DNA of 64,000 nucleotides, taken from assembly GCF_900142735.1 (NCBI RefSeq), contig NZ_FRBY01000002.1, positions 558,001 through 622,000 of the forward strand. Direction: 5' to 3'. Within the stretch, counting starts at the first letter, position 1. Each line of letters starts with the position of its first letter. Of this stretch, positions 38,140-59,985 are shown one piece after another. The notes under the pieces are model-generated. The model saw nothing but the letters and a program-made list of their open reading frames with translations. It was not told the origin of the DNA and made no database searches. The DNA comes from Flavobacterium saccharophilum. GTDB taxonomy: Bacteria > Bacteroidota > Bacteroidia > Flavobacteriales > Flavobacteriaceae. Position numbers and translations under genes: made by a program.

Positions 38140-38316
38140 ATAAAATAATAATTAATTGTTAATTACTATGAAGATGGGAATGCGTTGCATTGGTTGCTTT
38201 GGCGAAATGTTAAATATTTTTCAGAACGAATCAAACATCTACATATCAACACTTTGCCAGATGAAAAAAAATCACGCCACTACCGTTATTTCTTGCAAAA
38301 AATGAAATTTCTAACC

Positions 38317-38391
38317 TAGCCCCGATAAGAGCGGTATACTTTTTAGCCGCTTTTTCGGCGGCTAAAAAGATACAAGCGGATAGCGGGACAG
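38317..38391. ncRNA. Structured 'AGCCCCGAT..GCGGGA' element, copy 1
   Basis: It begins CTAGCCCCGATA and ends GGATAGCGGGACAGG, with an internal hairpin AGCCGC-tttttc-GGCGGCT extended by T5/A5. The ends match a second element at 46759-46886 while the internal hairpin differs. This looks like the conserved structured elements common in flavobacterial intergenic regions (possibly Rfam Flavo-1); I recall that family only in outline. Orientation is undecided. Confidence 0.5.
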
Positions 38392-38480
38392 GTCTTGTTT
38401 TGGAAACTGATTTTTCTGCTTCAAAAAAAAACACCAGCCTTTCGACCAGTGTTTTGAAATATTTTTTTTAAGCACTTAGA

Positions 38481-45356: not shown

Positions 45357-46637
45357 TTAAAAAGCCACTTTCATTTTATTTTTAATAGCATCTAAACACA
45401 GATTATTTATACTGCCTTCGTGTGTGTGTTTTGTTTCTTTTGGAGATTGATAAGTTCCTGCTTCCAATTGTTCTGCAACAGCTTTGTAAGCATCTCTAAA
45501 CGGCATTCCAGCCACAACCATTTCGTTTAAAGTATCAACCGTAAACAAATAATCGTATTTTTTATCTTTTAAAATATTGTCTTTAACTGTAATATCTTTT
45601 ACAGAGAAAATTGCAATATCTAAACAAGCTTTAAGGTTTTGAAGTGCCGGAAATAAACCTTCTTTTAAAAGTTGTAAATCTCTATGATAACCACTTGGCA
45701 AATTATTTGTGATTAAAGTGATTTCGTATGGAAGCGCCTGAATCTTGTTACATTTTCCTCTGATCAATTCGAACACATCTGGGTTTTTCTTGTGAGGCAT
45801 AATGCTTGAACCTGTTGTAAGATGAGCTGGCAAACTAATGAAATCAAAATTCTGACTCATATACAAACAAACGTCCATTGCAAATTTCGATAACGTTGCT
45901 GCTACACTACTCATGGCAAAAGCAACGGTTTTCTCTGCTTTTCCACGGCTCATTTGTGCGGCAACCGCATTGAATTTTAACGTTTCAAAACCTAATTCCT
46001 GTGTTGTAAAAGTTCTGTTTATTGGGAAAGAACTTCCGTAACCTGCCGCAGATCCTAACGGATTTTGGTCCACAACTTTAGACGCTGCATTCAACATTGT
46101 AATATCATCAATTAAGCTTTCAGCGTAAGCAGAAAACCACATTCCGAATGACGATGGCATCGCAATTTGCAAATGCGTATAACCTGGTAATAAAACATTT
46201 TGGTGTTTTTCTGCCGATTCCATTAACAAGTCAAACAATGTTTTTACCTGCTCTTTTATTGCTTTTAATTCATCTTTTAAATACAAATGAACATCAACTA
46301 AAACCTGATCGTTACGAGAACGTGCCGTGTGGATTTTCTTTCCGGCATCGCCCAATTTTACCGTTAACAGATATTCGATTTTAGAATGTACATCTTCAAA
46401 ACTGTCTTCAATTTCGAAATTTCCAACTACGATATCTGCAATAATATCGTTTAATGCATCAACCAAAGAAGTTGTTTCTTCTGAAGTCAATAAGCCAATT
46501 TTCCCCAGCATTTTAGCGTGTGCGATTGAACCTAAAGCATCGTATTTTGCTAGAACTAAATCTAATTCACGATCGTTTCCAACTGTGAAGTGTTCGATTT
46601 GTTTGTCTGTTGGTATTCCTTTTTCCCAAAGTTTCAT
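45357..46637 (-). CDS. argH: Argininosuccinate lyase
   Basis: Last step of arginine synthesis: argininosuccinate to arginine plus fumarate. 426 residues of the fumarase/aspartase superfamily. Motifs are RSRNDQVLVDVHLYLKDEL (about 105-123), PGYTHLQIAMPSSFGMW (catalytic His) and the signature GSSIMPHKKNPDVFELIRG (catalytic Ser loop). Last gene of the operon, 254 nt after the deacylase gene; a structured repeat element and a 25-bp direct repeat fill that gap. Confidence 0.96.
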   Translation of the reverse strand: MKLWEKGIPTDKQIEHFTVGNDRELDLVLAKYDALGSIAHAKMLGKIGLLTSEETTSLVDALNDIIADIVVGNFEIEDSFEDVHSKIEYLLTVKLGDAGKKIHTARSRNDQVLVDVHLYLKDELKAIKEQVKTLFDLLMESAEKHQNVLLPGYTHLQIAMPSSFGMWFSAYAESLIDDITMLNAASKVVDQNPLGSAAGYGSSFPINRTFTTQELGFETLKFNAVAAQMSRGKAEKTVAFAMSSVAATLSKFAMDVCLYMSQNFDFISLPAHLTTGSSIMPHKKNPDVFELIRGKCNKIQALPYEITLITNNLPSGYHRDLQLLKEGLFPALQNLKACLDIAIFSVKDITVKDNILKDKKYDYLFTVDTLNEMVVAGMPFRDAYKAVAEQLEAGTYQSPKETKHTHEGSINNLCLDAIKNKMKVAF

Positions 46638-46646
46638 AACTTAGAT

Positions 46647-46698
46647 TTTTAGACTTCTTAGATTGTTAGATTTTTTTAGACTTCTTAGATTGTTAGAT
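46647..46698. repeat. 25-bp direct repeat upstream of argH
   Basis: The 25-nt unit beginning TTTTAGACTTCTTAGATTGT occurs at 46647-46671 and again, identical, at 46674-46698. It lies 10 nt before the argH start and could affect its translation. Confidence 0.8.
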
Positions 46699-46758
46699 CT
46701 TCTAAAGTTGATGTTTTCTAATTTACTCTGGATGTCATTGTTTATACTGTTCGTGTTT

Positions 46759-46886
46759 CTAGCCCCGATAGTAGTGGAAATCCTTTTGTGCCGGGGTTCG
46801 GCACAAAAGATTACTTCACTTAATTTTTATTTCAATCGGAGTTCAGTGAACTTCGTTTGAAACGGATAGCGGGATTAGCTCCTAAA
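46759..46886. ncRNA. Structured 'AGCCCCGAT..GCGGGA' element, copy 2
   Basis: It begins CTAGCCCCGATA and ends GGATAGCGGGATTAG, sharing these ends with 38317-38391. The inside differs: a perfect hairpin CTTTTGTGCCG-gggtt-CGGCACAAAAG, then a smaller stem AGTTC-agt-GAACT. It lies inside the arginine operon, between argE and argH, so it is transcribed at least in the minus direction. Candidate structured RNA or mobile repeat, possibly Flavo-1-like. Confidence 0.5.
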
Positions 46887-46891
46887 TAATT

Positions 46892-47962
46892 TTATAATTT
46901 AAAGAAATCGCTTAGTATTTTGATATACAATTCGACTCCTTCTTCAATTTCATTTACAAAAATAAATTCGTCTGCTGAATGTGACCGCAATGTTTCTCCT
47001 GGTCCTAATTTTAAAGACTGACAGCTTAAAACAGATTGATCCGAAAGTGTTGGCGAACCGTACGTTGTTCTTCCCAATGCGATTCCGGCCTGAACTAAAC
47101 CGTGCGCAACTGGAATAGACGAAGCGTTTAAATGCATAGATCTTGGTGTAACTTCAGCATTTACGTTTGCTTTAACAACTTCTAAAATTTCCGTATTTGA
47201 ATAACGATCGGTTACACGAATATCAACTACCAAATCACATTCTGATGGAACAACATTATGCTGTTTTCCTGCACTAATCTGTGTTACGGTCATTTTTACG
47301 GGACCTAAAACATCAGAAATTTTATCGAATTTATAGTTTTTAAACCATTCCATTACCGGAATTGATTTGTATAATGCATTATCATCGTTTTGGTGTGCAG
47401 CGTGACTTGCAGTTCCTTTTACTTTTACATCCAAAACCAACAAACCTTTTTCGGCAATGGCCAATTGCATTAATGTAGGTTCGCCTACAATGGCGCAATC
47501 TAATTCTGGTAAATGTTTTAAAACACTGTTTAAACCATTTTTACCGCTGCTTTCTTCTTCAGCGGAAGCTACAATTACCAAATTATGTGACAAGTTTTGA
47601 TTCTCATAAAAATGAACAAAAGTGGCCAAAAGCGAAACCAAACAGCCTCCGGCATCATTACTTCCTAAACCAAATAATTTTCCGTCTTTTTCAATCGCCT
47701 TAAACGGATCGTTAGTATAAGCCTGATTTGGTTTAACCGTGTCATGGTGAGAATTCAGTAAAAGTGTCGGTTTATTTTCGTCGAAATATTTATTGAAAGC
47801 CCACACATTATTATTTTCTCTTTTAAAAGGAATTTCGTTTTGATTGAACCAATTTTCTATTAAAAGCGCCGTTTGATCTTCTTCACTTGAAAATGAAGGC
47901 GTTTCAATTAGATTTCTTAATAGTTGTATGGCTTCTTTGGTAAGCGTTTCTATATTCTTCAT
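46892..47962 (-). CDS. argE: M20-family deacylase of arginine pathway (ArgE type)
   Basis: A di-zinc amidohydrolase that should remove the N-acyl group from acyl-citrulline or acyl-ornithine. 356 residues. Metal-ligand motifs are LLNSHHDTVKPN (first His and the Asp), GLGSNDAGGCL (bridging Asp), ASAEEESSGKNG (Glu pair) and VGEPT; the dimerisation domain lies at about 170-280. Because the operon has an N-acyl-ornithine carbamoyltransferase (ArgF'), the expected substrate is N-acyl-citrulline, probably succinyl. 216 nt separate it from argB; that gap contains a palindrome and a 'gccacgaatt' repeat. Confidence 0.88.
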   Translation of the reverse strand: MKNIETLTKEAIQLLRNLIETPSFSSEEDQTALLIENWFNQNEIPFKRENNNVWAFNKYFDENKPTLLLNSHHDTVKPNQAYTNDPFKAIEKDGKLFGLGSNDAGGCLVSLLATFVHFYENQNLSHNLVIVASAEEESSGKNGLNSVLKHLPELDCAIVGEPTLMQLAIAEKGLLVLDVKVKGTASHAAHQNDDNALYKSIPVMEWFKNYKFDKISDVLGPVKMTVTQISAGKQHNVVPSECDLVVDIRVTDRYSNTEILEVVKANVNAEVTPRSMHLNASSIPVAHGLVQAGIALGRTTYGSPTLSDQSVLSCQSLKLGPGETLRSHSADEFIFVNEIEEGVELYIKILSDFFKL

Positions 47963-47984
47963 AAGTGTAGTTTCTCTGCCACGA

Positions 47985-48002
47985 TCCCGATAGCTATCGG
48001 GA
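47985..48002. repeat. 18-bp palindrome TCCCGATAGCTATCGGGA, copy 3
   Basis: Identical to 31977-31994. It sits just upstream of the argE start codon, inside the operon transcript, flanked by 'gccacga' and 'cgaagtcac', again splitting another repeat. Confidence 0.85.
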
Positions 48003-48100
48003 CGAAGTCACAAAGTTTTTATTAAATCTGTGACATTTTTAATTTGCGCAAATTTCTTAAATTAATATTTAAAATGGCTTGAGCAATTGTGTTTTTTTTT

Positions 48101-48173
48101 GCCACGAATTACACAAATTTTCGCTAATTTTTTTTAAAATTTTAATTCGTGAAAATTCGTGAAATTCATGGCA
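48101..48173. repeat. 'gccacgaatt..aattcgtg..atggca' inverted repeat
   Basis: The left half 'gccacgaattacacaaattttcg' and right half 'cgtgaaaattcgtgaaattcatggc' are imperfect reverse complements around an AT-rich loop, between argB and argE. A dispersed-element type distinct from the 'cgcaaag' family. Confidence 0.6.
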
Positions 48174-48178
48174 GCATT

Positions 48179-48955
48179 TTATAACGTAATTGTAGTATGC
48201 AAAACATCAGGATTTTGCAACATCTTGTGATGTCCAATTTTGATTTTTTGAACACCTCTTGACAAGCTGTTAAAACAATTATCTAATTTCGGAATCATTC
48301 CGGAATGGATTACTTTTTCCTCTTTTAACTTGTTGTATAAAGCTTCGTTTATTTCTGTAATTACAGAAGAATCATCTTCTGAATCTTGTAAAACGCCTTG
48401 TTTTTCAAAACAGTATGTTAGCGTAACATCAAAAACTGCAGACAACGCGATTGATAATTCGCTTGCAATGGTATCGGCATTTGTGTTTAATAACTGACCG
48501 TTTTTATCGTGTGTAATCGCGCAGAAAACAGGAACAATTCCGTTTTCAAGTAAGGTTTTTAATAAAGCTGTATTTACTTGTTTTACATCGCCTACAAATC
48601 CGTAATCAATTGTTGGATGGTTTCTTTTGGTTGATTGAATCAAATTCCCATCAGCTCCGGAAAACCCCATTGCATTGCTGTCTTTTGCCTGTAATTGTGC
48701 TACAATATCTTTATTGATTTGTCCTGCGTAAATCATAACCACAACATCAAGCATTGGAGCATCTGTAATTCGGCGTCCATCAATCATTTGAGGAACTAAA
48801 CCAATGCTCTGCGCCATTTTTGTAGCCGATTTTCCACCGCCATGAACCAAAACTTTATATCCTTCGATCTTAGAAAAATCAGTTAAAAACTGTTCTAATT
48901 CAGTTGGATTGTCGATTATATTTCCACCAATTTTTATTACGGTAACTTCTTTCAT
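48179..48955 (-). CDS. argB: Acetylglutamate kinase-type enzyme
   Basis: Phosphorylates the gamma carboxyl of N-acylglutamate with ATP. 258 residues from ATG 48955 (MKEVTVIKIGGNIID); an upstream reading adds only non-conserved residues. Motifs are KIGGN at the start, VHGGGKSATKMAQ (acyl-glutamate site), GFSGADGN and NTNADTIASELSIAL (nucleotide site). It is shorter than arginine-inhibited NAGKs, as it lacks their N-terminal helix, so allosteric inhibition by arginine is unlikely. Whether it takes acetyl- or succinyl-glutamate is open. Confidence 0.94.
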   Translation of the reverse strand: MKEVTVIKIGGNIIDNPTELEQFLTDFSKIEGYKVLVHGGGKSATKMAQSIGLVPQMIDGRRITDAPMLDVVVMIYAGQINKDIVAQLQAKDSNAMGFSGADGNLIQSTKRNHPTIDYGFVGDVKQVNTALLKTLLENGIVPVFCAITHDKNGQLLNTNADTIASELSIALSAVFDVTLTYCFEKQGVLQDSEDDSSVITEINEALYNKLKEEKVIHSGMIPKLDNCFNSLSRGVQKIKIGHHKMLQNPDVLHTTITL

Positions 48956-48956
48956 G

Positions 48957-49045
48957 AGGTTCAAAGGTTCAGAGGAACAAAGGGACAAAGTTTAGATCCA
49001 GTTTATAAACCTCTGAACCTTTGCAACTTTGAACCTTTGCACCTT
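48957..49045. repeat. 'ggttcaaagg..caaagggacaaag' dispersed repeat, copy 4
   Basis: 'ggttcaaaggttcagaggaacaaagggacaaag', then 'aacctctgaacctttgcaactttgaacctttgcacc' in opposite sense, fold into one long imperfect hairpin between argF' and argB. Same family as 7371-7751. Confidence 0.7.
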
Positions 49046-49048
49046 TAT

Positions 49049-49996
49049 TTACAATTTCTTTAAAATCTTCTGTAAAACTAATTGTGCTGAATACGTTCTG
49101 TTATTTGCTTGCTGAATTACGATTGAATTCTCGCTGTCAATTACTTCGTCGCTTACAATTACGTTACGACGAACCGGAAGACAATGCATAAACTTTCCGT
49201 TGTTGGTCAAAGCCATTTTTTCAGCAGTAACCGTCCAGCTTGGGTCGATGTTGGTTACTTTTCCGTAATCGTTGAAGTTACTCCAGTTTTTCACGTAAAC
49301 AAAATCGGCATTTTCGAAGGCTTTATTTTGATCGTATTCAATTTTACAATCTTTTGTGATTTCCGGACTCAATTCATAACCTTCAGGATGTGTAATTACA
49401 AAATCCATGTCTTTTTGCAATTGCATCATTTCTACGAATGAATTGGCAACTGCTTGTGGTAACGCTTTTGGATGTGGCGCCCAGGAAAGTACTACTTTCG
49501 GTTTGTGTTTCGTTTTGTACTCTTCCATTGTAATAGCATCAGCTAAAGACTGAAGCGGATGACGAACAGCACTTTCCATGTTTACGATTGGTACAGTTGC
49601 GTGTTTCAGAAATCCTGAAATTACTGTTTCAGCATAATCTTTTTCTTTGTCGGCCAAACCTGCAAAAGCACGAATTGCGATAATGTCACAATATTGAGAT
49701 ACTACTTCAGCAGCTTCCTTAATATGTTCTGAAGCTCCAGAATTCATAACAGCGCCGTCTTCGAACTCTAATGTCCAGCCTTCGTTGGTAAAATTCATCA
49801 CCATAACATTCATTCCTAAATTTAAAGCTGCTTTTTGAGTACTCAAACGCGTTCTTAAACTCGGATTAAAGAATAACATCCCTAATGTTTTATTCTTTCC
49901 TAAACTTTGATTTTTAAGCGGATTCTTTTTGATTTTTAATGCGCTTTTTACCCATTTTGATAATGAGTTGATATCTTGAATTGAAATATAATTCAT
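49049..49996 (-). CDS. argF': N-acyl-ornithine carbamoyltransferase (succinyl type predicted)
   Basis: Carbamoylates N-acyl-ornithine instead of free ornithine. 315 residues from ATG 49996 (MNYISIQDINSL). The carbamoyl-phosphate loop FFNPSLRTRLSTQ (42-54) and the C-terminal FMHCLPVRRN are clear, and the HPLQSLAD motif is present. The residue that separates Xanthomonas acetyl-ornithine enzymes (Glu) from Bacteroides fragilis succinyl-ornithine enzymes (Pro) is Ser89 here, in MNSGASEHI. From memory, swapping that Glu to Ser turns the acetyl enzyme into a succinyl one, so I predict succinyl-ornithine. Confidence 0.92.
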   Translation of the reverse strand: MNYISIQDINSLSKWVKSALKIKKNPLKNQSLGKNKTLGMLFFNPSLRTRLSTQKAALNLGMNVMVMNFTNEGWTLEFEDGAVMNSGASEHIKEAAEVVSQYCDIIAIRAFAGLADKEKDYAETVISGFLKHATVPIVNMESAVRHPLQSLADAITMEEYKTKHKPKVVLSWAPHPKALPQAVANSFVEMMQLQKDMDFVITHPEGYELSPEITKDCKIEYDQNKAFENADFVYVKNWSNFNDYGKVTNIDPSWTVTAEKMALTNNGKFMHCLPVRRNVIVSDEVIDSENSIVIQQANNRTYSAQLVLQKILKKL

Positions 49997-50012
49997 AGTT
50001 TTTTCTTTAAAA

Positions 50013-50870
50013 TTATTTATGAGCATTGCTCTTTTTTTTCTTGATTCTTAAAATGGTATGTATTGTTGCTAGATAGAAATTAAATATCCAACTATACCAA
50101 ATCGCTTTATCATATCCGTTTTTTTGATCTAAATTATGATGACGAATTCCAAAATTATTTGCGATACTAAAAATATCATTTTCATCTTTTTTATTCAAAA
50201 ACTCCTTTATATCTTTTCTTAAAAATTCTAAAATGTCCGCTAGTTCTCGAATAGCATCTTTTCTATCTTCGAGCGTTGATTTATGTTGCCGAAATTTCAC
50301 AATAGCAAGACTCAATTTATTTTTAATATTTTCTAAATCATCAGTTGGAATGCTTGCATTATATAAAGTAGAAAGACCTTCATCTACCAAATTTAAAATC
50401 TCTCCTTTATCAGAAATCTCAAAACCATCTTTATAATCTCTTAATAAAGGATTAAACAGTTCTCTAAAATACTTTTTACCTTCATTGTCATCAAATTTTG
50501 AATAATGATAACCACAACTATAGCCAAACCCTAAATCATGAAAATCTCGTTCTAAACCTTTTGAACAATAGTCGTGAAGAAATTCTAAAATATCAAACAA
50601 GTCATCTTCGCTGTAATTTTCAATTTTTTCATTAACTGGATATAGATTATTTTTTCTTAAATTAATAAACATAAGTAAAGAAATATCTGGACCTAATTCT
50701 CCTGCAATAAATCCATCTGAACAATTAATTCCCAAGTACTTTTGAAAATATCCATTCTCAGTTAACATAGTATAAATTGCCAAAGATAATTCCTTTAATT
50801 TATCAAAAGTCATATTGCTTTCCGGTAAAACAATACCCCTTCTCCTTGAAAAAGATTCTCTTCTTATCAT
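50013..50870 (-). CDS. Unknown 285-aa protein with HEPN/abortive-infection-like C-terminus
   Basis: It is embedded in the arginine operon but has no evident biosynthetic role. It is largely alpha-helical and soluble. Residues about 20-150 (TFDKLKELSLAIYTMLTENGYFQKYLGI.. SEDDLFDILEFLHDYCSK) form one region. The C-terminal third (KDAIRELADILEFLRKDIKEFL..KKDENDIFSIANNFGIRHHNLDQ.. YDKAIWYSWIFNFYLATIHTILRIKKKK) has an R-H-H motif and a long hydrophobic helix, like abortive-infection or HEPN-type proteins. That comparison is by eye only. It starts 34 nt after proB and ends 16 nt before argF', so it is co-transcribed. Confidence 0.7.
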   Translation of the reverse strand: MIRRESFSRRRGIVLPESNMTFDKLKELSLAIYTMLTENGYFQKYLGINCSDGFIAGELGPDISLLMFINLRKNNLYPVNEKIENYSEDDLFDILEFLHDYCSKGLERDFHDLGFGYSCGYHYSKFDDNEGKKYFRELFNPLLRDYKDGFEISDKGEILNLVDEGLSTLYNASIPTDDLENIKNKLSLAIVKFRQHKSTLEDRKDAIRELADILEFLRKDIKEFLNKKDENDIFSIANNFGIRHHNLDQKNGYDKAIWYSWIFNFYLATIHTILRIKKKKSNAHK

Positions 50871-50904
50871 TACATTTATTTATAAATAACTATTAAAAAA
50901 CTTT

Positions 50905-51666
50905 CTAAATAATCTTTGTAAAAGGAATTTCTCCTTCTAATGCCTTTAAAATAAAATTATCATTTAATCCGTTGACGATCCAGGTTTCGATGTTTGCTGC
51001 TTTTGCGATTCCGGCGGCTTCGATTTTGGATTGCATTCCTCCTGTTCCGTGTGATGATTTAGATTCGCCGATTTCTTTTTCTAAAACCTGTAAATCATTT
51101 ACTAATTTTATCGTTTCGGGATTTTCATTGTGAATAGAATCTTTAGTATAAATACCGTTTGTATTAGTCGCAATAATCAGAATGTCAACATTTAAAAGAA
51201 CCGCTGTTAACGCTGCTAATTTGTCGTTATCTCCAAACCGGATCTCATCTGTGGCAACGGTGTCATTTTCATTGATTATCGGAATGTAATTATTCTCCAC
51301 CAAAACATTAATGGTATTGACAATGTTCACTTTTGACTGCTGTTTTTCAAAATCGGAATAAGACAGTAAACATTGTGATGTCAATAAACCTAAATCGCTG
51401 AAATTTTCGTGGAAAATCCGCATTAAATGGGGCTGACCAATCGATGCTAAAGCTTGTTTCAAAGCAATTTCTTTTCCTTTACTTTCCAGTTTTACAAACT
51501 GCTTTGCGGCTGCAATTGCTCCTGAACTTACAATTACAAATTCGTAATCTTTATTCAAAGCGGCAATCTGCATACCAATATCTTCAATCTTTCCCCGCGA
51601 AATATGGTTGGTTTCCTTGGTTAAAGTATTACTTCCTATTTTTAATAAAATCCTCTTTTTCCCCAT
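50905..51666 (-). CDS. proB: Glutamate 5-kinase, short form without PUA
   Basis: First step of proline synthesis: ATP-dependent phosphorylation of glutamate. 253 residues of the amino-acid-kinase fold: KRILLKIGSNTLTKE, FVIVSSGAIAAAKQF, NENDTVATDEIRFGDNDKLAA, and GTGGMQSKIEAAGIA. The C-terminal PUA domain of E. coli ProB is missing, which is common in short forms. It lies 118 nt after proA; that gap holds an 'accgcaaag' repeat. Confidence 0.94.
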   Translation of the reverse strand: MGKKRILLKIGSNTLTKETNHISRGKIEDIGMQIAALNKDYEFVIVSSGAIAAAKQFVKLESKGKEIALKQALASIGQPHLMRIFHENFSDLGLLTSQCLLSYSDFEKQQSKVNIVNTINVLVENNYIPIINENDTVATDEIRFGDNDKLAALTAVLLNVDILIIATNTNGIYTKDSIHNENPETIKLVNDLQVLEKEIGESKSSHGTGGMQSKIEAAGIAKAANIETWIVNGLNDNFILKALEGEIPFTKII

Positions 51667-51676
51667 TGTTGTTGTT

Positions 51677-51758
51677 TTAACCGCAGTTTTTTAACCGCAA
51701 AGTGCGCAAGGCTTTTTATATTGTTTGTGTTTGTAAACGGTAAGTTCGCAAAGCTTTG
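51677..51758. repeat. 'accgcaaag' dispersed repeat between proA and proB
   Basis: 'ttaaccgcagttttttaaccgcaaagtgcgcaagg', then 'aaacggtaagttcgcaaag'. A degenerate unit of the lpd-flanking family, here within the arginine operon transcript. Confidence 0.65.
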
Positions 51759-51784
51759 TCTTAATAATTATCAAATTATCTCAA

Positions 51785-52978
51785 TTATCTAATTTGTCCC
51801 TCTCCGTACACGTACCATTTGTTTGTAACCAAATGCTGCAAACCAATTGGGCCTCTTTGATGTAATTTGTCTGTGCTTATCGCTAATTCTCCGCCTAAAC
51901 CAAATTGTCCTCCATCTGTAAATCGTGTTGACGCATTGTGATACACTGCAGCGGCGTCAATAGACTCCATGAATTGCTTTGCCTTTTTTTCGTCTCTTGT
52001 AATAATAGCTGCCGAATGTCCTCCGCAATATTTGTTGATCTTTTCAATTGCATGTTGTTCAGAATCAATTGTTCCGATGACAATTTTATAATCCAGAAAT
52101 TCTTCATACCAAATATCTTCGTTTTGAAGTGTTTCGGTATTTTCGAAATTTTCTAATGATTTATCAACGATAATTTCAACTTTAGATTCTGTTAAAGCTT
52201 CAATTAACATGGCGGCAAAACCTTCGAAATTGGGTAATCTTGAATCGATTAAAACTTTATCTAAAGCATTACAAGCTGAGATCTTAGAAGTTTTGGCATT
52301 TAAAATTACTTTTAAAGCCAAATCGGTATCGGCATTTTCATGAACGTACACAAAATTGTTTCCACGACCGCTAACAATTACCGGACAAGTGGCGTGTTGT
52401 TTGACGAACTCAATTAATTTTTCTCCTCCTCTCGGAACAATTAAATCTACTTTTTGAGTTGGTTTTTCTAGGAAAGCTTGTGTTTCTGTGCGATTGTAAT
52501 TCAAATATTCAACCCAGTCTTTTGAAACTCCATTTTCTTCCAAAGCTTGATGCCAGAGCGCCACAATTTTTAAATTTGATCGTAAAGCTTCTTTTCCTCC
52601 TTTTAATAAAATCTTATTTCCGGATTTAAAGGCAATTCCACCTGCTTCAATGGTAACATCCGGACGCGATTCGTAAATAATTAGAATCGTACCAAATGCT
52701 GCTGTTTTATTTATGACTTTTATTCCATTATCATGAACAAAGTGAAAACGTTCTACTCCAACCGGATCTTCCTGAGAAGCCAGTTGATTCAATGATAAAA
52801 TCATCTCGTCGACTTTTTTATCATCTACTTTCAAACGTTCTTCCATTGCTAAATCTGAACCGTCATAAGCCAATAAATCTTCCTGATTGGTGAGAATGAT
52901 TTGATTCCGCTCCTGATCGACAAGCTTTGCCATGGAACGCAAAACGAGATTGCGTTTTTCAATTGATAATGGATTCAT
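51785..52978 (-). CDS. proA: Gamma-glutamyl phosphate reductase
   Basis: Reduces gamma-glutamyl phosphate to glutamate semialdehyde with NADPH, the second step of proline synthesis. 397 residues of the aldehyde-dehydrogenase fold: IYESRPDVTIEAGGIAFKSGN, LIVPRGGEKLIEFV, and catalytic Cys in KTSKISACNALDKVLI. The C-terminus has STRFTDGGQFGLGGELAISTDKLHQRGPIG, typical of ProA. Order proA-proB with arg genes on both sides suggests joint control of the two glutamate-derived pathways. Confidence 0.95.
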   Translation of the reverse strand: MNPLSIEKRNLVLRSMAKLVDQERNQIILTNQEDLLAYDGSDLAMEERLKVDDKKVDEMILSLNQLASQEDPVGVERFHFVHDNGIKVINKTAAFGTILIIYESRPDVTIEAGGIAFKSGNKILLKGGKEALRSNLKIVALWHQALEENGVSKDWVEYLNYNRTETQAFLEKPTQKVDLIVPRGGEKLIEFVKQHATCPVIVSGRGNNFVYVHENADTDLALKVILNAKTSKISACNALDKVLIDSRLPNFEGFAAMLIEALTESKVEIIVDKSLENFENTETLQNEDIWYEEFLDYKIVIGTIDSEQHAIEKINKYCGGHSAAIITRDEKKAKQFMESIDAAAVYHNASTRFTDGGQFGLGGELAISTDKLHQRGPIGLQHLVTNKWYVYGEGQIR

Positions 52979-53032
52979 AATTTATACTTGGTTGTTTTTT
53001 GGTTTGTTTCTTTTAAGGGAAACTTTATGATA

Positions 53033-53059
53033 CCTAACAGGTTTTGGAAACCTGTTAGG
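53033..53059. repeat. 12-bp perfect hairpin between argD and proA
   Basis: CCTAACAGGTTT (53033-53044), loop TGG, AAACCTGTTAGG (53048-53059). It has no T-run in the operon direction, so it probably does not terminate; an RNA-stability or dispersed-repeat role is possible. Confidence 0.75.
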
Positions 53060-53070
53060 ATAAGCATATT

Positions 53071-54210
53071 CTAATTTTTCAATTCTTCTAAACTTTCTTT
53101 TAAAGCGACAATAAATGTATAAATATCTGATTTTTTCACTGTCAATGGCGGCAAAATTCTTAATAGATTTTTGTTGTTCGCACTTCCTGTAAAAATATGT
53201 TTCTCGATAATTAATTTCTTTCTTAAAGCAGATACATCAAAATCAAATTCAACTCCAAGCATCAATCCTTTACCTTTTACTTGTTTGATTCCAGGAACCT
53301 GTTTGATTTGTTCTGCAAAATAAGCTGAAACTTCGTTTACGTTATCAATTAAATTTAATTTTTCAATTACGTCTAAAACAGCAATTCCAGCAGCACAAGA
53401 TAAATGGCTTCCGCCGAAAGTAGTTCCTAATAATCCGAAACTTGCTTCAAATTTTGGAGAAATTAAAATCGCTCCAACCGGAAAACCGTTCCCCATTCCT
53501 TTTGCTACAGAAATAATATCAGCATTGATTCCGTGATGTTGAAAAGCGAAGAATTTTCCGCTTCTTCCGTATCCAGATTGTACTTCGTCTAAAATCAAAA
53601 CAACATCGTATTTTTTACATACTTTTTCCAAAGCCTGAAAAAATTCTGTTGTTCCCTGGTCTAAACCGCCAACTCCCTGAATTCCCTCAATAATTACGGC
53701 AGTAACATCTCCTTTTGCCAATTCAGCCTCTACTAAATCAATTTGGTTTAGAGGTAAAAAAGTAACGACTTGCTGTGCATTAATTGGCGCAACAATTTTT
53801 TTGTTATCAGTAACCGCAACTGCTGCCGAAGTTCTTCCGTGGAAAGAATTATCAAAAGCTACAACTCTTGATTTTCCATTATGGAAAGAAGCTAATTTTA
53901 AAGCATTTTCATTCGCTTCGGCTCCAGAACTGCACAAAAACAATTCATAAGCTTCCAATCCTGAAAGCTTTCCTAATTTCTGAGCCAACTCAACCTGCAA
54001 AGGATTTTGAATTGCATTCGAATAAAATCCTAAATGATCTAATTGATTTTTTAGCTTTTCAACATAATCAGGTTGCGTATGGCCAATCGAAATTACACCA
54101 TGTCCGCTATATAAGTCTAAATATTCCACTCCGTTATTGTCTGTAATAGTGCAGTCTACTGCTTTTACAGGTGTTATGTCATAAAGTGGGTATACGTTAA
54201 ATAAATTCAT
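53071..54210 (-). CDS. argD: Acetylornithine-type aminotransferase
   Basis: A PLP class III aminotransferase making N-acyl-ornithine from N-acyl-glutamate semialdehyde. 379 residues. Motifs are FLCSSGAEANENALKLA (phosphate binding), FDNSFHGRTSAAVAVT, ILDEVQSGYGRSGKFFAFQHHGINADIISVAKGMGNGFPVGA (PLP Lys in VAKGMG) and LGTTFGGSHLSCAAG. Downstream of argC by 87 nt. It could also serve succinyl substrates, as many ArgD enzymes do. Confidence 0.94.
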   Translation of the reverse strand: MNLFNVYPLYDITPVKAVDCTITDNNGVEYLDLYSGHGVISIGHTQPDYVEKLKNQLDHLGFYSNAIQNPLQVELAQKLGKLSGLEAYELFLCSSGAEANENALKLASFHNGKSRVVAFDNSFHGRTSAAVAVTDNKKIVAPINAQQVVTFLPLNQIDLVEAELAKGDVTAVIIEGIQGVGGLDQGTTEFFQALEKVCKKYDVVLILDEVQSGYGRSGKFFAFQHHGINADIISVAKGMGNGFPVGAILISPKFEASFGLLGTTFGGSHLSCAAGIAVLDVIEKLNLIDNVNEVSAYFAEQIKQVPGIKQVKGKGLMLGVEFDFDVSALRKKLIIEKHIFTGSANNKNLLRILPPLTVKKSDIYTFIVALKESLEELKN

Positions 54211-54297
54211 TTCGTTTTGTTATTAGTTGATTGTTGATAGTTGTTGGTTAAATTCGATGTCTCCATCAACTATAAACCAAAAACCATCAACTTAATA

Positions 54298-55275
54298 TTA
54301 AAATCCGCTTGGTTTCAAATGTAAACCGATGGTTTCTTCTAAGCCGAACATCAAATTCATATTTTGAATCGCTTGTCCTGAAGCACCTTTTGTTAAGTTG
54401 TCTATGATTGAGGTAACTAAAATCCGGTTTCCTTTTTTCATTAAACTGATGATACATTTGTTCGTTTGTACGACTTGTTTCATGTTGATGTTTGTCGTTG
54501 TAACGGTTACAAACGGTTCGTATTTATAGAAATCTTCGTATTTGGCAACGGTATACTCCAAGCTTTCATCTGAAGACGTATATAATGTTGCAAAAATTCC
54601 TCTTGGAAAATCTCCTCTGTTCGGAATAAAAAGCAATTCACTTTCAAAATCATCCTGCAATTGAACCAAACTTTCTGAGATTTCTCCCAAATGTTGATGT
54701 TCAAAAGCTTTATAATGCGACATATTATTGTTTCTCCAACTAAAATGAGAGGTTTCTGAAAGTCCAACTCCTGCACCGGTACTTCCTGTTGTGGCATTAA
54801 TATGAACATCATTATTCAATAAATTATGTTTTGCTAAAGGCAATAAAGCCAACTGAATTGCTGTCGCAAAACAACCTGGATTTGCAATATAATTTGCTTT
54901 TTTAATATCTGCTTTATTCAGTTCCGGCAAACCGTAAATAAAATCTTTTCCTTCAAAATGAGCGTCTTTATTCAGTCTGAAATCATTTCCTAAATCAATA
55001 ATTTTAGTGTGACTCGCAAATTGATTTTCCTTTAAAAAGGAAATCGATTTTCCGTGGCCTAAACATAAAAACACAACATTTACCTCTGGATTGATGGTGT
55101 CAGTAAAATTCATTTCAATATCTCCCATCAAATCATGGTGCGCCAGAGAAAGCGGTTTACCTGAATTGGTTGTACTGTAAACAAAATCGATATTTACATT
55201 GGGATGATACATTAATATTCTGATAAGTTCTCCGGCCGTGTAGCCCGAACCACCAATTATTCCGACATTAATCAT
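54298..55275 (-). CDS. argC: N-acetyl-gamma-glutamyl-phosphate reductase
   Basis: NADPH-dependent reduction of the acyl-phosphate to semialdehyde. 325 residues with the NAD(P) fold GIIGGSGYTAGELIRIL at the N-terminus and the catalytic Cys in the signature YIANPGCFATAIQLALLPL. HINATTGSTGAGVG and HQHLGEI carry the catalytic His region. The start overlaps the argG stop by 8 nt, so the two are translationally coupled. Confidence 0.95.
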   Translation of the reverse strand: MINVGIIGGSGYTAGELIRILMYHPNVNIDFVYSTTNSGKPLSLAHHDLMGDIEMNFTDTINPEVNVVFLCLGHGKSISFLKENQFASHTKIIDLGNDFRLNKDAHFEGKDFIYGLPELNKADIKKANYIANPGCFATAIQLALLPLAKHNLLNNDVHINATTGSTGAGVGLSETSHFSWRNNNMSHYKAFEHQHLGEISESLVQLQDDFESELLFIPNRGDFPRGIFATLYTSSDESLEYTVAKYEDFYKYEPFVTVTTTNINMKQVVQTNKCIISLMKKGNRILVTSIIDNLTKGASGQAIQNMNLMFGLEETIGLHLKPSGF

Positions 55276-56461
55276 AATCTAAATGGTTTACAGATGAAAA
55301 TATGTTTTGCGCATTTCCTAAAATCTTAATAAATCCTTTTGCATCATCAGACGTCCAGGCATTGTTCATTTCTCCATATTGACCAAAACCTGTGTTCATC
55401 AAATCATTGTCTGATTCAATTCCGTCAAGCGAAAAATGGTAAGGTTTTAAAGAAACCGTTACAACACCATTCACTGTTTTTTGAGTGTCCTGCAAAAATG
55501 TTTCGATGTTACGCATTACAGGATCTAAAAACTGACCTTCGTGAAACAACATTCCGTACCAGTTTCCAAGTTGCTCTTTCCAGTATTGCTGCCATTTCCC
55601 AAGAGTATGTTTTTCTAGTAAATGGTGTGCTTTGATGATAATTAATGGAGCAGCAGCTTCAAAACCAACTCTCCCTTTAATTCCGATAATGGTGTCTCCA
55701 ACGTGAATATCTCTTCCAATTGCAAAAGCGTTTGCCAGTTTTTCAAGAGCAACAATGTTATTTGATGGTTTATCCATTATGCCGTTTAAACCTACTAATT
55801 CTCCTTGCTCAAAGTGTAATCTTACCTTTTCTTCACCTTCTTTTTGCAATTGCGAAGGATAAGCATCACTTGGCAATGGCTGGCTGGAAGTTAAGGTTTC
55901 TTTTCCTCCAACACTTGTTCCCCAAAGTCCTTTATTGATAGAATATTGTGCTTTTTCCCAAGAATAATGAACACCATTTTTAGATAAATAATCTACTTCC
56001 TCCTGTCTTGAAAGTTTCAAATCTCTAATTGGTGTGATAATTTCAATTTCCGGAGCAATAGTCTGGAAAATTAAATCAAAACGAATCTGATCATTTCCTG
56101 CACCTGTACTTCCGTGTGCGATAGCACTTGCTCCTACTTTTTTAGCATATTTAATAGCCTCAATTGCCTGAAAAACACGCTCTGCACTTACTGATAAAGG
56201 ATACGTATTGTTTTTTAATACATTTCCGAAAATCAAATATTTTATAGCTTTATCATAATATTTATCTACGATGGTTAGGTTGGCGTGTTGCGCGCTTCCT
56301 AATTCGTAGGCTCTTTTTTCAATTGCTGATAATTCTTCAGCATCAAATCCTCCTGTATCTACAAGTACGGTGTGAACTTCGTATCCTTTTTCATTTTTTA
56401 AATATTTCAAACAATACGAGGTATCTAATCCTCCACTATAAGCTAATACAACTTTTTTCAT
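55268..56461 (-). CDS. argG: Argininosuccinate synthase
   Basis: Joins citrulline and aspartate with ATP. 397 residues. The PP-loop is KKVVLAYSGGLDTSYCLKYL at the N-terminus; HGSTGAGNDQIRFD and SINKGLWGTSVGG (aspartate/citrulline binding) are present. The enzyme belongs to the Bacteroidetes variant with a shorter middle region and EGQFLDPVMRNIE near the C-terminus. Second gene of the operon, 65 nt after the GNAT. Confidence 0.93.
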   Translation of the reverse strand: MKKVVLAYSGGLDTSYCLKYLKNEKGYEVHTVLVDTGGFDAEELSAIEKRAYELGSAQHANLTIVDKYYDKAIKYLIFGNVLKNNTYPLSVSAERVFQAIEAIKYAKKVGASAIAHGSTGAGNDQIRFDLIFQTIAPEIEIITPIRDLKLSRQEEVDYLSKNGVHYSWEKAQYSINKGLWGTSVGGKETLTSSQPLPSDAYPSQLQKEGEEKVRLHFEQGELVGLNGIMDKPSNNIVALEKLANAFAIGRDIHVGDTIIGIKGRVGFEAAAPLIIIKAHHLLEKHTLGKWQQYWKEQLGNWYGMLFHEGQFLDPVMRNIETFLQDTQKTVNGVVTVSLKPYHFSLDGIESDNDLMNTGFGQYGEMNNAWTSDDAKGFIKILGNAQNIFSSVNHLDYD

Positions 56462-56526: not shown

Positions 56527-57168
56527 TTATGGCAAAAAAATAAAAGACAGAATTTTATTTAAGAATAAAGCTTGTTTTATTTTTTTTAATCTGTTCAAAA
56601 CAGCTTCGTTAAAAGGATGTCTTGGCGGATCTTTTTGTTTTTCTTTTGGATCGTACAACATTCCAGTACAAAGACACATTTTGTTTTCTTTGCTTTTTAG
56701 AATTTCATAATTAGTACAGGTTTTACATCCTGACCAAAAACTTGGATCAGTCGTTAATTCAGAGAAAGGCACAGGCTTATAACCCAAATCAGAGTTGATT
56801 TTCATTACAGCTAAACCAGTTGTAATTCCAAATATTTTTGCGTCTGGGTATCTTTGTAAAGAATAATCAAAAACTTTAGATTTGATCTTTTTAGCCAAAC
56901 CTAAACTTCTGTAATCCGGATGTACAATTAAACCAGAATGTGCCACGAATTTTCCGTGCTGCCAACTTTCGATATAACAAAAACCTGCAAATTTTCCATC
57001 TGCCAAAGCAATCATCGCATCACCGTTCGCCATTTTTTTCTGAATGTACTCAGGAGTTCTTTTAGCAATCCCTGTACCTCTTAATAAGGCAGATGATTCT
57101 ATCGTATCGCAAATTTCCTGTGCGAATTTGAAGTGTTCTTCTTGAGTTACAACAATAGAGATTTTCAT
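56527..57168 (-). CDS. GNAT acyltransferase with C-terminal CxxC/CxC cluster, probable N-acylglutamate synthase
   Basis: First gene of the arginine operon, 213 residues. The GNAT core has VVTQEEHFKFAQEICDTIE and the CoA loop VHPDYRSLGLAKKIKSKVFDYS. A four-cysteine cluster follows, SGCKTCTNYEI..NKMCLCTGMLYD, unlike usual GNATs, which could bind zinc or an iron-sulfur centre. No argA or argJ is otherwise present in the operon, so by position it is the likely N-acetyl- or N-succinyl-glutamate synthase. That assignment is inference. Its ATG is 1 nt after the stop of a weak TTG-initiated reading frame in the leader. Confidence 0.8.
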   Translation of the reverse strand: MKISIVVTQEEHFKFAQEICDTIESSALLRGTGIAKRTPEYIQKKMANGDAMIALADGKFAGFCYIESWQHGKFVAHSGLIVHPDYRSLGLAKKIKSKVFDYSLQRYPDAKIFGITTGLAVMKINSDLGYKPVPFSELTTDPSFWSGCKTCTNYEILKSKENKMCLCTGMLYDPKEKQKDPPRHPFNEAVLNRLKKIKQALFLNKILSFIFLP

Positions 57169-57324
57169 TTCAATAGCTGAAGTTAGAGTTAAAAATTAAA
57201 ACATACTGTTTAGTTTGAAATCTAAAAATCAATCCAATAAAATTAGACAAAATAGAAGTAACATTCTCAAAATCAAAATATTGATTTAGAAAATTTACAA
57301 AATAATATATAGTTTTAGGATATG

Positions 57325-57341
57325 TTTGTCCAATGGACAAA
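57325..57341. promoter_or_regulatory. Palindrome TTTGTCCAATGGACAAA in arginine operon leader
   Basis: 7-bp arms around AAT. The arms TTTGTC/GACAAA occur again at 57447-57461 with a 3-nt centre. It could be an operator pair or RNA hairpins in the leader. Confidence 0.5.
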
Positions 57342-57390
57342 TGATGTGATTTCAAAATGAAAAATGAATATAAATAAATACGCGGCGAAA

Positions 57391-57461
57391 AACTCTGTGA
57401 ATACTATACAGATAGTATCCGTACTTCGGGAGAAGTTACAGGAGAGTTTGTCCGTGACAAA
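57391..57461 (-). promoter_or_regulatory. Predicted three-way-junction RNA in arginine operon leader
   Basis: In RNA sense: P1 AACTCT (57448-57443) with AGAGTT (57396-57391); P2 GTAACTTC (57439-57432), loop TCCC, GAAGTAC (57427-57421) with one bulge; P3 ATACTAT (57418-57412), loop CTGT, ATAGTAT (57407-57401). Joiners are CCT, GG and TCAC. P1 runs straight into a U5 tract. A further hairpin TTTGTC-ACG-GACAAA (57461-57447) overlaps the P1 5' arm by two bases, so the two may compete. GC content is higher than in the flanks, as in structured RNA. Not verified by folding software. Confidence 0.55.
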
Positions 57462-57490
57462 GAAGTTATATGTAAACTTATTTTATTCAT
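57404..57490 (-). CDS. Candidate 28-codon leader peptide of the arginine operon
   Basis: ATG at 57490 and TAG at 57404-57406; it reads MNKISLHITSLSRTNSPVTS followed by PEVRILSV. Both Arg codons are CGG, rare in this AT-rich genome. The ATG is 6 nt after the -7 box, so it would open a leaderless transcript, as for arsR and smpB here. It runs through P1-P3 of the predicted RNA junction and stops in the P3 3' arm. It may be an arginine-sensing attenuation peptide; chance occurrence is not excluded. Confidence 0.4.
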   Translation of the reverse strand: MNKISLHITSLSRTNSPVTSPEVRILSV

Positions 57491-57496
57491 CGAGTG

Positions 57497-57524
57497 CAAA
57501 AATACACTATTTTTTTATTTGCAA
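57497..57524 (-). promoter_or_regulatory. Promoter of the arginine/proline operon
   Basis: On the minus strand TTG (57524-57522), 17 nt, TATTTTTG (57504-57497). A full consensus match. Predicted start of transcription is about 57490-57492, leaving a leader of about 320 nt before the first gene. Confidence 0.7.
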
Positions 57525-57654
57525 AACAAAAAAATAAAATTCTAACATTTTTTTAGCGTAATGTTATTTTTTTTAAAGATGCTAAGATTCTAAGTTACTA
57601 AGGTTCTGAGTTTTCTCGGAAAATTACAACCTAAAACTTGAAATCCAAAAATAT

Positions 57655-57690
57655 AAAAGCCCGATAGTTACTATATAACTATCGGGCTTT
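57655..57690 (-). terminator. Terminator after M1 peptidase gene
   Basis: AAAGCCCGATAGTTA pairs with TAACTATCGGGCTTT (57676-57690) around CTATA; on the minus strand Ts follow. The stem core CCCGATAG..CTATCGGG is shared with the 18-bp palindromes. Confidence 0.88.
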
Positions 57691-57714
57691 AAATACTTTG
57701 AAATTCTGTTTTTT

Positions 57715-59985
57715 TTAATTCTTTTTAAACGGAATAACTTTTCCATTTCCTAAAACAACCATATCAAATCCTGTTTTAGCTTCGTTAAATTTAAATTTTA
57801 AGCCCGCTCTTTTTGACTCAAAAGTGTCTTTTTCACCCTCTACAGGCTCAACAGCAAACTTAGGGTAATTTGTAATTTCTGCATTAAGAACACTGTTTTT
57901 CTCTGTAAATTCAATTTTCAAAGGACCATTTGCAGCAGAATAATTTCCTAAATATCCATCTAAAATAATATCTTTCTCTACTTTACCTTTTCCCACAGTC
58001 CAAACATTATTACTTTCGTTATAATCTGGCAAAGCATGATCAGGATCTAGTGTAATGCTTTCAATCTCTTCAGTAGAGTTGTGTTTAAAAGTCCAGTCAT
58101 TATTACGTTGCCAAATTTCAACAGGCAATTTCACTCTCGTTACTTTTCCACTTTTTGTTTTTACATCCAAAATAATTGGCATCGGCATTTTATCAAAATT
58201 CTCAACTGTAATTACAACTCCCTTTGATGGATCGTTTTTCACATATTTAATAGAATTAATTCCTTGGTCAAATCTCCAGTTATTTACAAACCAGCTTCTC
58301 CAGAACCAACTTAAATCTTCTCCTGCGACGTTTTCAATTGTTCTGAAAAAGTCATCCGGAGTTGGGTGTTTGTAAGCCCAACGCTCCACATAAGTACGTA
58401 ACGCTTTATCAAAACGCTCTTCTCCTAAAACCTGCTCTCTTAATATTGTCAATCCTGCACTTGGCTTTGCATAACATAAAACACCAATATTAGCTTCCTT
58501 CATATTATCAGGAGAACTCATAATAGTCTCTAATTTTGGGCTTGTGTAATATTCTACATCTTCGTGAAGATCTGCTGGTTTTTGTTTGTATTCTCCATTA
58601 TTGAAATCAAAAGAACTTAAAGAATTAATAAAAGTATTAAAACCTTCGTCCATCCATGCAAACAAACGCTCATTAGAACCTACAATCATAGGAAACCAAA
58701 TATGTCCAAATTCGTGATCTGTAACGCCCCATAAATCATCTCCTTTAGATTTCCATCCACAGAAAACAATACCAGGATATTCCATTCCGCCTTCATTTCC
58801 TGCTACGTTTGTTGCAGCTGGATAAGGATATTCAAACCATCTTTTCGAGTAATTTTCAATTGAAGCTTTAACGTATTCTGTAGAACGTCCGTACGCATCG
58901 TTACCTGCACTTTCAACTGGATAAGCTGATAATGCTAACGATTTTTTACCACTTGGCAAATTAATTTTTGCTCCGTCCAAAATGAAAGCAGGAGATGAAG
59001 CCCAAGAAAAATCACGGGCATTTTTTATTTGATAATGCCATGTTTTCTGCGCTGTTGCATTAGCTGTTGCTGTTGCAGCAACTTCTTCTGCAGTACGAAT
59101 CATTACGGTTTTGTCACTTTGTGAAGCAGCCTTATAACGTTTAAACTGTTCTGCAGGCAAAACTTCTGCCCCATTCAACAATTCTCCTGAACCTACAACA
59201 TAATGATTGGCAGGCACCGTTAGTTTTACGTCAAAATTTCCATATTCTAAATAGAACTCAGAAGCTCCTAAATAGGGTGCAGTATTCCATCCACGTACAT
59301 CATCATACACACACATACGTGGGTACCATTGTGCAATCGTGAAGATTTTTCCGTTTTTAGTTTCTAAAACTCCCATTCTGTCAGATCCTTCGAAAGGAGC
59401 AATGAATGAAAATTCAATTTTAATTTTTACAGATCCACCTTTTGAAGCCAATTCCTGAGGAAGAAAAATTTGCATTCTGGTATCTGAAACGATAAATTTT
59501 GCATCAGTTTCAACTTTAGTTTTTCCACCAGAAATCACTTTTACTGATTTAATTTTATTACCTCCATCAAAAACCTGACCTTGAGCTCCATTACGACTCC
59601 CTGTCAAAGGCACCACTGCATTTCCTCTTGAATCCTCTTTGAATAAGTTTTGATCCAGATTTAACCAAACAAATGATAATTTATCCGGACTATTGTTGGT
59701 ATAGGTAATTTCATCAGTACCTGTAATTTCATTTTTTACTTCATCTAACTTTGCTGTTATTTGATAATCAGCTCTGTTTTGCCAGTACTCAACACCAGGC
59801 TGACCACTTGCAGAACGGGTTGATGTGCCATTTTTTGTATAAAAATGTGGCGCAAAAGCATCATGATAATTGTAATTGTTTACCGGATTTACTGCTGTTG
59901 TAGCTGGGGTTTGCTGTGCCCAAACAGAAGAAATCCCTACAAACAAAGCCATGGTTAATAAGGCTTTAGAGGATTGTTTTTTCAT
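57715..59985 (-). CDS. Exported M1-family metallopeptidase
   Basis: A zinc aminopeptidase of the gluzincin M1 family, 756 residues from ATG 59985; the signal peptide is [24 protein letters not shown]. The zinc site is HEFGH with the third ligand Glu 18 residues later (WMDEGFNT). The usual GAMEN exopeptidase motif appears as GGMEYP, close to other exported Bacteroidetes members. N-terminal beta domain about 75-280 ([36 protein letters not shown]). It probably trims peptides in the periplasm or at the surface. A TTG at 60009 in frame is less likely as start. Confidence 0.92.

Follow-up and report, generated by a model that had tools for sequence, protein, structure and literature searches.

A probable ribosome-operated arginine leader upstream of the arg/pro operon of Flavobacterium saccharophilum

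Described leaders and the arg/pro locus

The attenuators of the trp, his, and phe operons combine a short leader ORF, containing codons for the end product, with alternative RNA structures, and they lie upstream of a biosynthetic operon. The candidate leader that we describe here, ahead of the arg/pro operon of Flavobacterium saccharophilum, shares these features, but it differs in that (i) its two CGG codons are separated rather than forming a run; (ii) its start codon stands at the very 5' end; (iii) its codons overlap an RNA junction; and (iv) it has no canonical intrinsic terminator. In other leaders, the nascent peptide itself arrests the ribosome, i.e., TnaC with tryptophan and the fungal arginine attenuator peptide with arginine. 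SpeFL is the E. coli counterpart of the speF orf34 leader, which is a close functional parallel. For Salmonella speF orf34, it is reported (PMC6386406) that arginine supply acts, via two Arg codons, on a structure sensitive to RNase G, and that the Arg codons of this leader ORF tie expression to arginine through alternative mRNA structures, as we propose for the arg leader. The likeness is one of function, with differences: the speF leader controls ornithine decarboxylase whereas the arg leader would control arginine synthesis, and the Arg codons are consecutive in orf34 but 11 codons apart in the arg leader.

Closer to the present locus, strong clues for leader-peptide attenuation ahead of amino-acid operons come from F. 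psychrophilum, a member of the same genus, in which conserved 5' elements precede pheA and hisG; passages of that report name these two genes and no arg leader (PMC9723704). Small ORFs reminiscent of leader peptides appear in passages on Bacteroides (PMC7366714). Our own data agree in that the his and phe leaders of the genus look like textbook attenuators: in F. saccharophilum, the his leader peptide reads MISNQLHHHHFHYCSQAMC (HHHH) and the phe leader peptide MASNRFYFSNSFYFFF... is F-rich, and each is accompanied by an intrinsic terminator (L144 and L161, respectively). An initial annotation of this DNA had called attenuation hardly described in the phylum, which is only partly right in view of the F. 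psychrophilum clues and of these his and phe leaders. Our literature search, mostly outside subscription papers, returned no arginine leader in Flavobacteriaceae.

The window, i.e., the whole stretch of 64,000 nt that was analysed, carries on its minus strand an arg/pro operon of 11.8 kb.

56527 to 57168, minus strand: GNAT-family acetyltransferase, the first operon gene (Pfam PF00583)
45357 to 56461, minus strand: remaining operon genes (from sequence order and family searches)

The gene order after GNAT is argG, argC, argD, proA, proB, a 285-aa ORF, the N-acetylornithine carbamoyltransferase gene, and argB-like, argE-like, and argH-like genes. The argG and argD assignments are matches that score below the curated cut-offs, and the argB-like, argE-like, and argH-like genes were named by eye from their sequence and place. 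The 285-aa ORF (50013-50870, minus strand), situated between proB and the carbamoyltransferase gene, has no Pfam or NCBIfam match. As side observations, two matches to Flavo-1 RNA lie in the window on the plus strand (38314-38394 and 46757-46880), the second of them antisense to the operon, in the interval that separates the argE-like from the argH-like gene; and two more GNAT copies, with 52-54% identity to the first gene of the operon, are located at C5:316090-317505 of genome G000.

A short ORF over competing RNA structures

The candidate leader is made up of a promoter and a short ORF, the latter 322 nt ahead of the first operon gene.

57497 to 57524, minus strand: sigma-A type promoter, with TTG (57524-57522), 17 nt, and the -7 box TATTTTTG (57504-57497), from the sequence
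57404 to 57490, minus strand: leader ORF of 28 codons, MNKISLHITSLSRTNSPVTSPEVRILSV-stop, with its ATG at 57490 and the end of its stop codon at 57404, kept in 89/89 leaders
57452 to 57454, minus strand: the CGG of Arg codon 13, which directly precedes P1 and falls within hairpin PA, in its loop and 3' arm (sequence, 89 leaders)
57419 to 57421, minus strand: the CGG of Arg codon 24, situated at the foot of P3 on its 5' side (sequence, 89 leaders)

The ATG follows the -7 box by 6 nt. An exact TAnnTTTG box stands 4-7 nt ahead of the start codon in 85 of 89 selected leaders, and the remaining 4 have one mismatch. Because of this spacing, the leader mRNA is predicted to be nearly leaderless; with the promoter box at -12 to -5, as given for F. 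psychrophilum in passages of PMC9723704, it would start ~2 nt before the ATG. In alignment A4 of the selected leaders, the ORF is open in 89/89 and 26-28 codons long, beginning with ATG in 87 and GTG in 2, and its length changes ahead of the stop codon are, as judged by eye, whole codons. Changes that create a stop in the ORF frame number 5 versus 16.7 expected, compared to 15 versus 27.7 (also low) and 29 versus 32.6 in the control frames (85/89 rows). The leader ORF is thus presumably translated. A 57-codon ORF on the plus strand (57364-57537) spans the whole leader antisense.

The Arg codons are nearly invariant. Codon 13 is Arg in 87/89 leaders (85 CGG, 1 AGG, and 1 CGC), and the two others (L105 and L118) have an Arg one codon off. 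A second Arg occurs in 89/89 leaders, at codon 24 in 88 of them (CGG in 87, AGG in 1) and at codon 23 (CGG) in L105, a row with a 3-nt deletion. CGG is rare, accounting for 8/470 Arg codons (1.7%) across the 37 long ORFs of the window. The genome has 51 tRNA matches, whose Arg anticodons are UCU, UCG, and ACG; since CCG is not among these 51, a single tRNA-Arg(UCG) gene presumably decodes CGG. As the GG of codon 24 pairs within P3, part of the conservation of this codon may be structural.

The same nucleotides that carry the coding frame also fold into a three-way junction (P1-P2-P3), preceded by a hairpin (PA).

57443 to 57449, minus strand: P1 5' arm (AAACTCT), permutation test of duplex energy
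57390 to 57396, minus strand: P1 3' arm (AGAGTTT), permutation test of duplex energy
57423 to 57436, minus strand: hairpin P2 (ACTTC-TCCC-GAAGT), covariation in 89 leaders
57399 to 57420, minus strand: hairpin P3 (GGATACTAT...ATAGTATTC), with the stop codon TAG within its 3' arm, covariation in 89 leaders
57447 to 57461, minus strand: hairpin PA (TTTGTC-ACG-GACAAA), whose 3' arm overlaps the P1 5' arm, permutation test

The segment 57370-57524 folds better than 200/200 dinucleotide shuffles (z -2.64), with P1, P2, and P3 all in its minimum free energy (MFE) structure; all three are likewise present in the MFE of 78/89 leaders. Across the 89 leaders, 98.4% of cells are paired in P2 (3/5 pairs changed on both sides), 94.8% in P3 (3/8 pairs changed on both sides), and 71.3% in P1 in the model structure. 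Taken together on A4, the three stems have 88.2% standard pairs and a covariation score of 0.209, compared to 0.135 ± 0.006 for shuffled alignments (reached in 0/500) and no more than 0.084 when partners are slid. Counting pairs with a double change does not discriminate, because the native value, 10, is reached in 9/500 shuffles and also in three of the six slid versions (12, 12, and 10). A plain MAFFT alignment with RNAalifold recovered only P2 and P3 (10 pairs) and missed P1 because the position of its 3' arm moves by a few nt between lineages. Given this shift and the 71.3% pairing, the case for P1 is made by the permutation test, in which the duplex energy of the native arms averaged -7.43 kcal/mol versus -5.46 ± 0.21 kcal/mol for permuted partners, with 0/20000 as good (65 distinct 5' arms). 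The corresponding z is -9.4, compared to -0.1 to -2.0 for seven control windows; five of these windows lie at approximately -1.6 to -2.0, a bias that relatedness alone can give. The initial observation of this leader is well beyond chance.

PA was supported in a similar manner. At least 4 contiguous pairs are present in 67/88 leaders, versus 0-8 at eight shifted positions, and its native energy (-1.80 kcal/mol) exceeds in strength that of permuted halves (-1.28 ± 0.13 kcal/mol; 0/5000 as good; 54 distinct rows). Changes at codon 11 tend to go along with changes at codon 14 (TTG/ACA 33, ATC/ATA 15; but also TTA/ATA 6, TTG/ATA 5, and ATC/ACA 4). PA and P1 have nt 42-44 of the ORF in common, and the covariation in both points to a real competition between two mutually exclusive structures that overlap the ORF.

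The layout read from this sequence by the initial annotation is borne out in most respects, i.e., a promoter with 17-nt spacing, a 28-codon ORF beginning 6 nt past the -7 box some 330 nt ahead of a 12-kb operon (322 nt and 11.8 kb by our measure), two rare CGG codons, three stems with a closing stem, and an upstream hairpin competing with that stem (PA at 57461-57447). The comparison with relatives that it had proposed likewise came out in its favor: across the 89 leaders, the stems are conserved along with the ORF and the Arg codons within it, and P1-P3 and PA all covary.

Two further elements lie downstream of the junction.

57364 to 57380, minus strand: TATTTATTTATATTCAT, a partial complement of the 5' end AUGAAUAAA, which may form a weak helix P0 (permutations)
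57313 to 57357, minus strand: second conserved non-coding block (TTTTGAAATCA...CATTGGA...ATATCCTAAA), from conserved columns

Helix P0, pairing the 5' end with UUUAUUCAU, was better than the mean of mononucleotide shuffles in 45/53 and was set aside as weak, with 944/20000 permutations as good. Within block 57357-57313, a GGAT/ATCC hairpin is without covariation (67/500 shuffles reach its score), and a reading of the block as a promoter was discarded after visual inspection. A conserved ORF between the leader and the first gene (57170-57355) was also rejected: the frame is open in most genomes, but it is shorter than 25 codons in 10/56.

Distribution in Flavobacterium and in other genera

A search with the leader model (R1) matched 183/398 Flavobacterium genomes, or 169/333 of those of good quality. 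By blastn with an E limit of 1, each of 121 Flavobacterium genomes gave some match, although many of these matches were weak and short. In the first set of loci, 56/62 lie upstream of a GNAT gene with the ORF starting at the same place, and 6/62 do not; among the loci from the model search, which come partly from genomes already in this first set, 62/66 lie beside a GNAT gene, the other 4 being matches at E above 0.3. In the first sample, 65 genomes (16 of them not of good quality) gave no strong blast match; of these, 14 have the GNAT protein and 51 lack it. One of these 14 (G118) has an R1 match, and nine have a more distant GNAT-argG pair, preceded in six by a leader whose Arg tail is mostly CGG and in three (L285, L292, and L293) by no such leader. 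The remaining four of the 14 (G009, G111, G024, and G011) have more divergent ORFs with CGG codons, directly after a TAnnTTTG box, and the CGG codons are at positions 13 and 24 in three of the four. Because of the co-occurrence of R1 and GNAT and the leaders in divergent genomes, the leader, or something like it, mostly accompanies the operon. Beyond the genus, among 397 family genomes (237 genera, stricter filters), R1 gave three weak matches outside Flavobacterium (E 0.33-0.94), none beside GNAT or argG, and plasmid records yielded no match to the leader. The six Arg-tailed leaders (L286-L291) that precede the more distant GNAT-argG pair make up another type of arg leader within Flavobacterium, in which the Arg codons, mostly CGG, stand around positions 29-37 of the ORF.

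In the wider family, the GNAT gene is present in 98/149 Flavobacteriaceae genomes. An ATG-initiated ORF with at least 4 Arg in its last 12 residues occurs in 68/88 arg upstream regions of other genera, compared to 0.4 in shuffled sequences and 0/49 his/phe regions. Similarly, RRP-stop is encoded in some frame in 67/88 of these arg regions (0.0 in shuffles; 0/49 his/phe regions). A looser rule (3 Arg, any start) is satisfied by 88/88, but also by 8.0 in shuffles and 4/49 his/phe regions, and so includes false ones. The counted leaders of other genera code Arg as CGC and CGT, not CGG.

Many of these regions carry a structured RNA, which we refer to as module B, consisting of a leader that ends with Arg-Arg-Pro-stop on a CCC/GGG hairpin (e.g., CCCGTAAGGG, spanning the Pro-stop codons) and, after it, a hairpin with the nearly invariant core UAGGUGWGUCC. 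Module B is found mostly ~55-120 nt ahead of the GNAT match (upstream regions L185-L272, and also L273-L276), and its core is present with at most 1 mismatch in 78/88 upstream regions. Its pairs covary in alignment A5 (0.207 versus 0.125 ± 0.009 shuffled, 0/500; slides up to 0.133). The corresponding model, R2, matched 92/149 family genomes, two of these twice; one match (G060, E 0.003) is probably due to chance. In G481, module B precedes a 194-aa ORF of other sequence, followed by argG- and argC-like ORFs. Eight module B loci, six of them with the core at no more than 1 mismatch, had no Rfam match at E up to 0.5. Module B is a candidate for a new, family-wide RNA class, and it could act by ribosome arrest at Pro-stop or as an RNA that binds arginine or a protein.

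An R2 search of the F. saccharophilum genome returned no module B. Divergent Flavobacterium loci (L280-L284) seem, by eye, to carry both a leaderless ORF and a variant of module B, so the lineage of the window may have lost the latter. ORFs placed like the leader ORF also occur in other genera, e.g., MKNLKNKIRCTVPGFPVRFRRRY, the likeness being one of placement. We tentatively entertain the possibility, falling short of what we would call probable, that arginine synthesis in Flavobacteriaceae is under a two-module ribosome sensor mostly without intrinsic terminators, in which module A is a leaderless Arg-codon ORF ~300 nt upstream and module B is the structured RNA near the first gene.

Sensing, output, and competing explanations

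We then asked how such a leader may act on the operon, beginning with a scan for canonical terminators, defined as a hairpin with 6 or more T among the 8 nt after it, with chance levels from mononucleotide shuffles and a second run using stricter stems. The scan, which is blind to branched stems, detected one in 2/89 arg leaders (1.2 by chance; 0/89 with stricter stems), compared to 23/25 hisG regions (stricter, 23/25) and 23/24 pheA regions (stricter, 13/24) of the same genus. In arg regions of other genera, the counts were 21/88 (chance 1.8) and, with stricter stems, 1/88. Nearly all arg leaders thus lack a canonical intrinsic terminator, one of the defining features of a classical attenuator; by these tests, the arg leader falls outside that class, although it may work like one.

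In our preferred reading, the locus is probably an arginine switch operated by the ribosome. Under a shortage of charged tRNA-Arg, the ribosome would halt at CGG13 or CGG24 and cover arms of PA/P1 or P2/P3, so that the junction could not close and the operon would be transcribed. When arginine is ample, the ribosome would clear the ORF, the junction would close behind it, and expression would fall. Given the lack of a conserved intrinsic terminator, the final step would most likely be premature termination of another kind, e.g., by Rho on the ~230 untranslated nt past the leader stop. The direction of the response and the output step are what we infer from this arrangement.

Different parts of this reading merit different confidence. 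That arginine is sensed through translation of the leader is very probable from comparative sequence data: the leader peptides rich in Arg that precede this operon in other genera make it much more likely than a single sequence could. One point that counts against our reading is that there are two Arg codons only, with no run. The full statement, i.e., an arginine-responsive, ribosome-operated leader whose output is premature termination, is close to an even call and falls slightly on the doubtful side, because it joins the sensing to the termination output. Arginine attenuation as put forward by the initial annotation has fared accordingly in two ways: its sensing component stands, given the conserved ORF and Arg codons, the covarying stems, and the Arg-rich leaders elsewhere, and its use of P1 as an intrinsic terminator does not, given the scan result and a variable T run.

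If it operates as proposed, the leader would give a large bacterial family a specific regulator of its arginine synthesis that is open to testing, and would represent a departure from the rule that ribosome-sensing leaders end in an intrinsic terminator. Terminator-less control from a 5'-terminal AUG, in bacteria whose initiation is unlike the Shine-Dalgarno kind, thereby becomes testable.

The same sensor could have another output, in that the position of the ribosome would determine not whether transcription terminates but how the mRNA decays or how the first gene is translated. The lack of a terminator, the block at 57357-57313, which is conserved but untranslated and lies between the leader and the first gene, and the precedent of Salmonella speF orf34 (PMC6386406) are all compatible with such an output, but the first gene begins 145 nt past that block, and we regard this alternative as unlikely while deserving serious consideration.

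A canonical attenuator in which P1 and the T run after it act as a branched intrinsic terminator would have escaped the hairpin scan. In 84 leaders (5/89 lack the outermost P1 G-C pair), the 8 nt past this pair include at least 5 T in 71/84, in favor of such a terminator; however, they begin with at least 4 T in only 39/84 and contain no more than 3 T in 8/84, P1 is mostly A-U, and the surrounding region is T-rich anyway. The U5 noted by the initial annotation at the foot of P1 is accordingly not a conserved run, and a branched terminator appears improbable.

Nascent-peptide arrest, in which the leader peptide would stall the ribosome upon binding free arginine, could account for the near fixation of Arg13, Val23, and Arg24. 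The other residues drift, however, and synonymous changes make up 138/459 inferred changes in codons 2-24, i.e., 0.30 versus 0.27 expected (85/89 rows), a fraction near neutral that reveals no selection on the peptide as such and indicates that, taken over its whole length, its amino-acid sequence is little constrained. Moreover, the conserved SPE and VR codons sit in P2/P3, where RNA pairing can explain them, leaving peptide arrest a distinctly improbable explanation.

Finally, a ligand- or protein-binding junction with an accidental ORF is hardly credible: P2 and P3 are the most conserved helices and the junction folds without ribosomes, but Rfam 15 has no family at gathering score in the leader (11 matches in 57150-57720 at E up to 5, all below that score), and the exchange of ATG for GTG, the frame open in 89/89 leaders, the fixed Arg codons, and the Arg-rich leader peptides of the family all argue against it.
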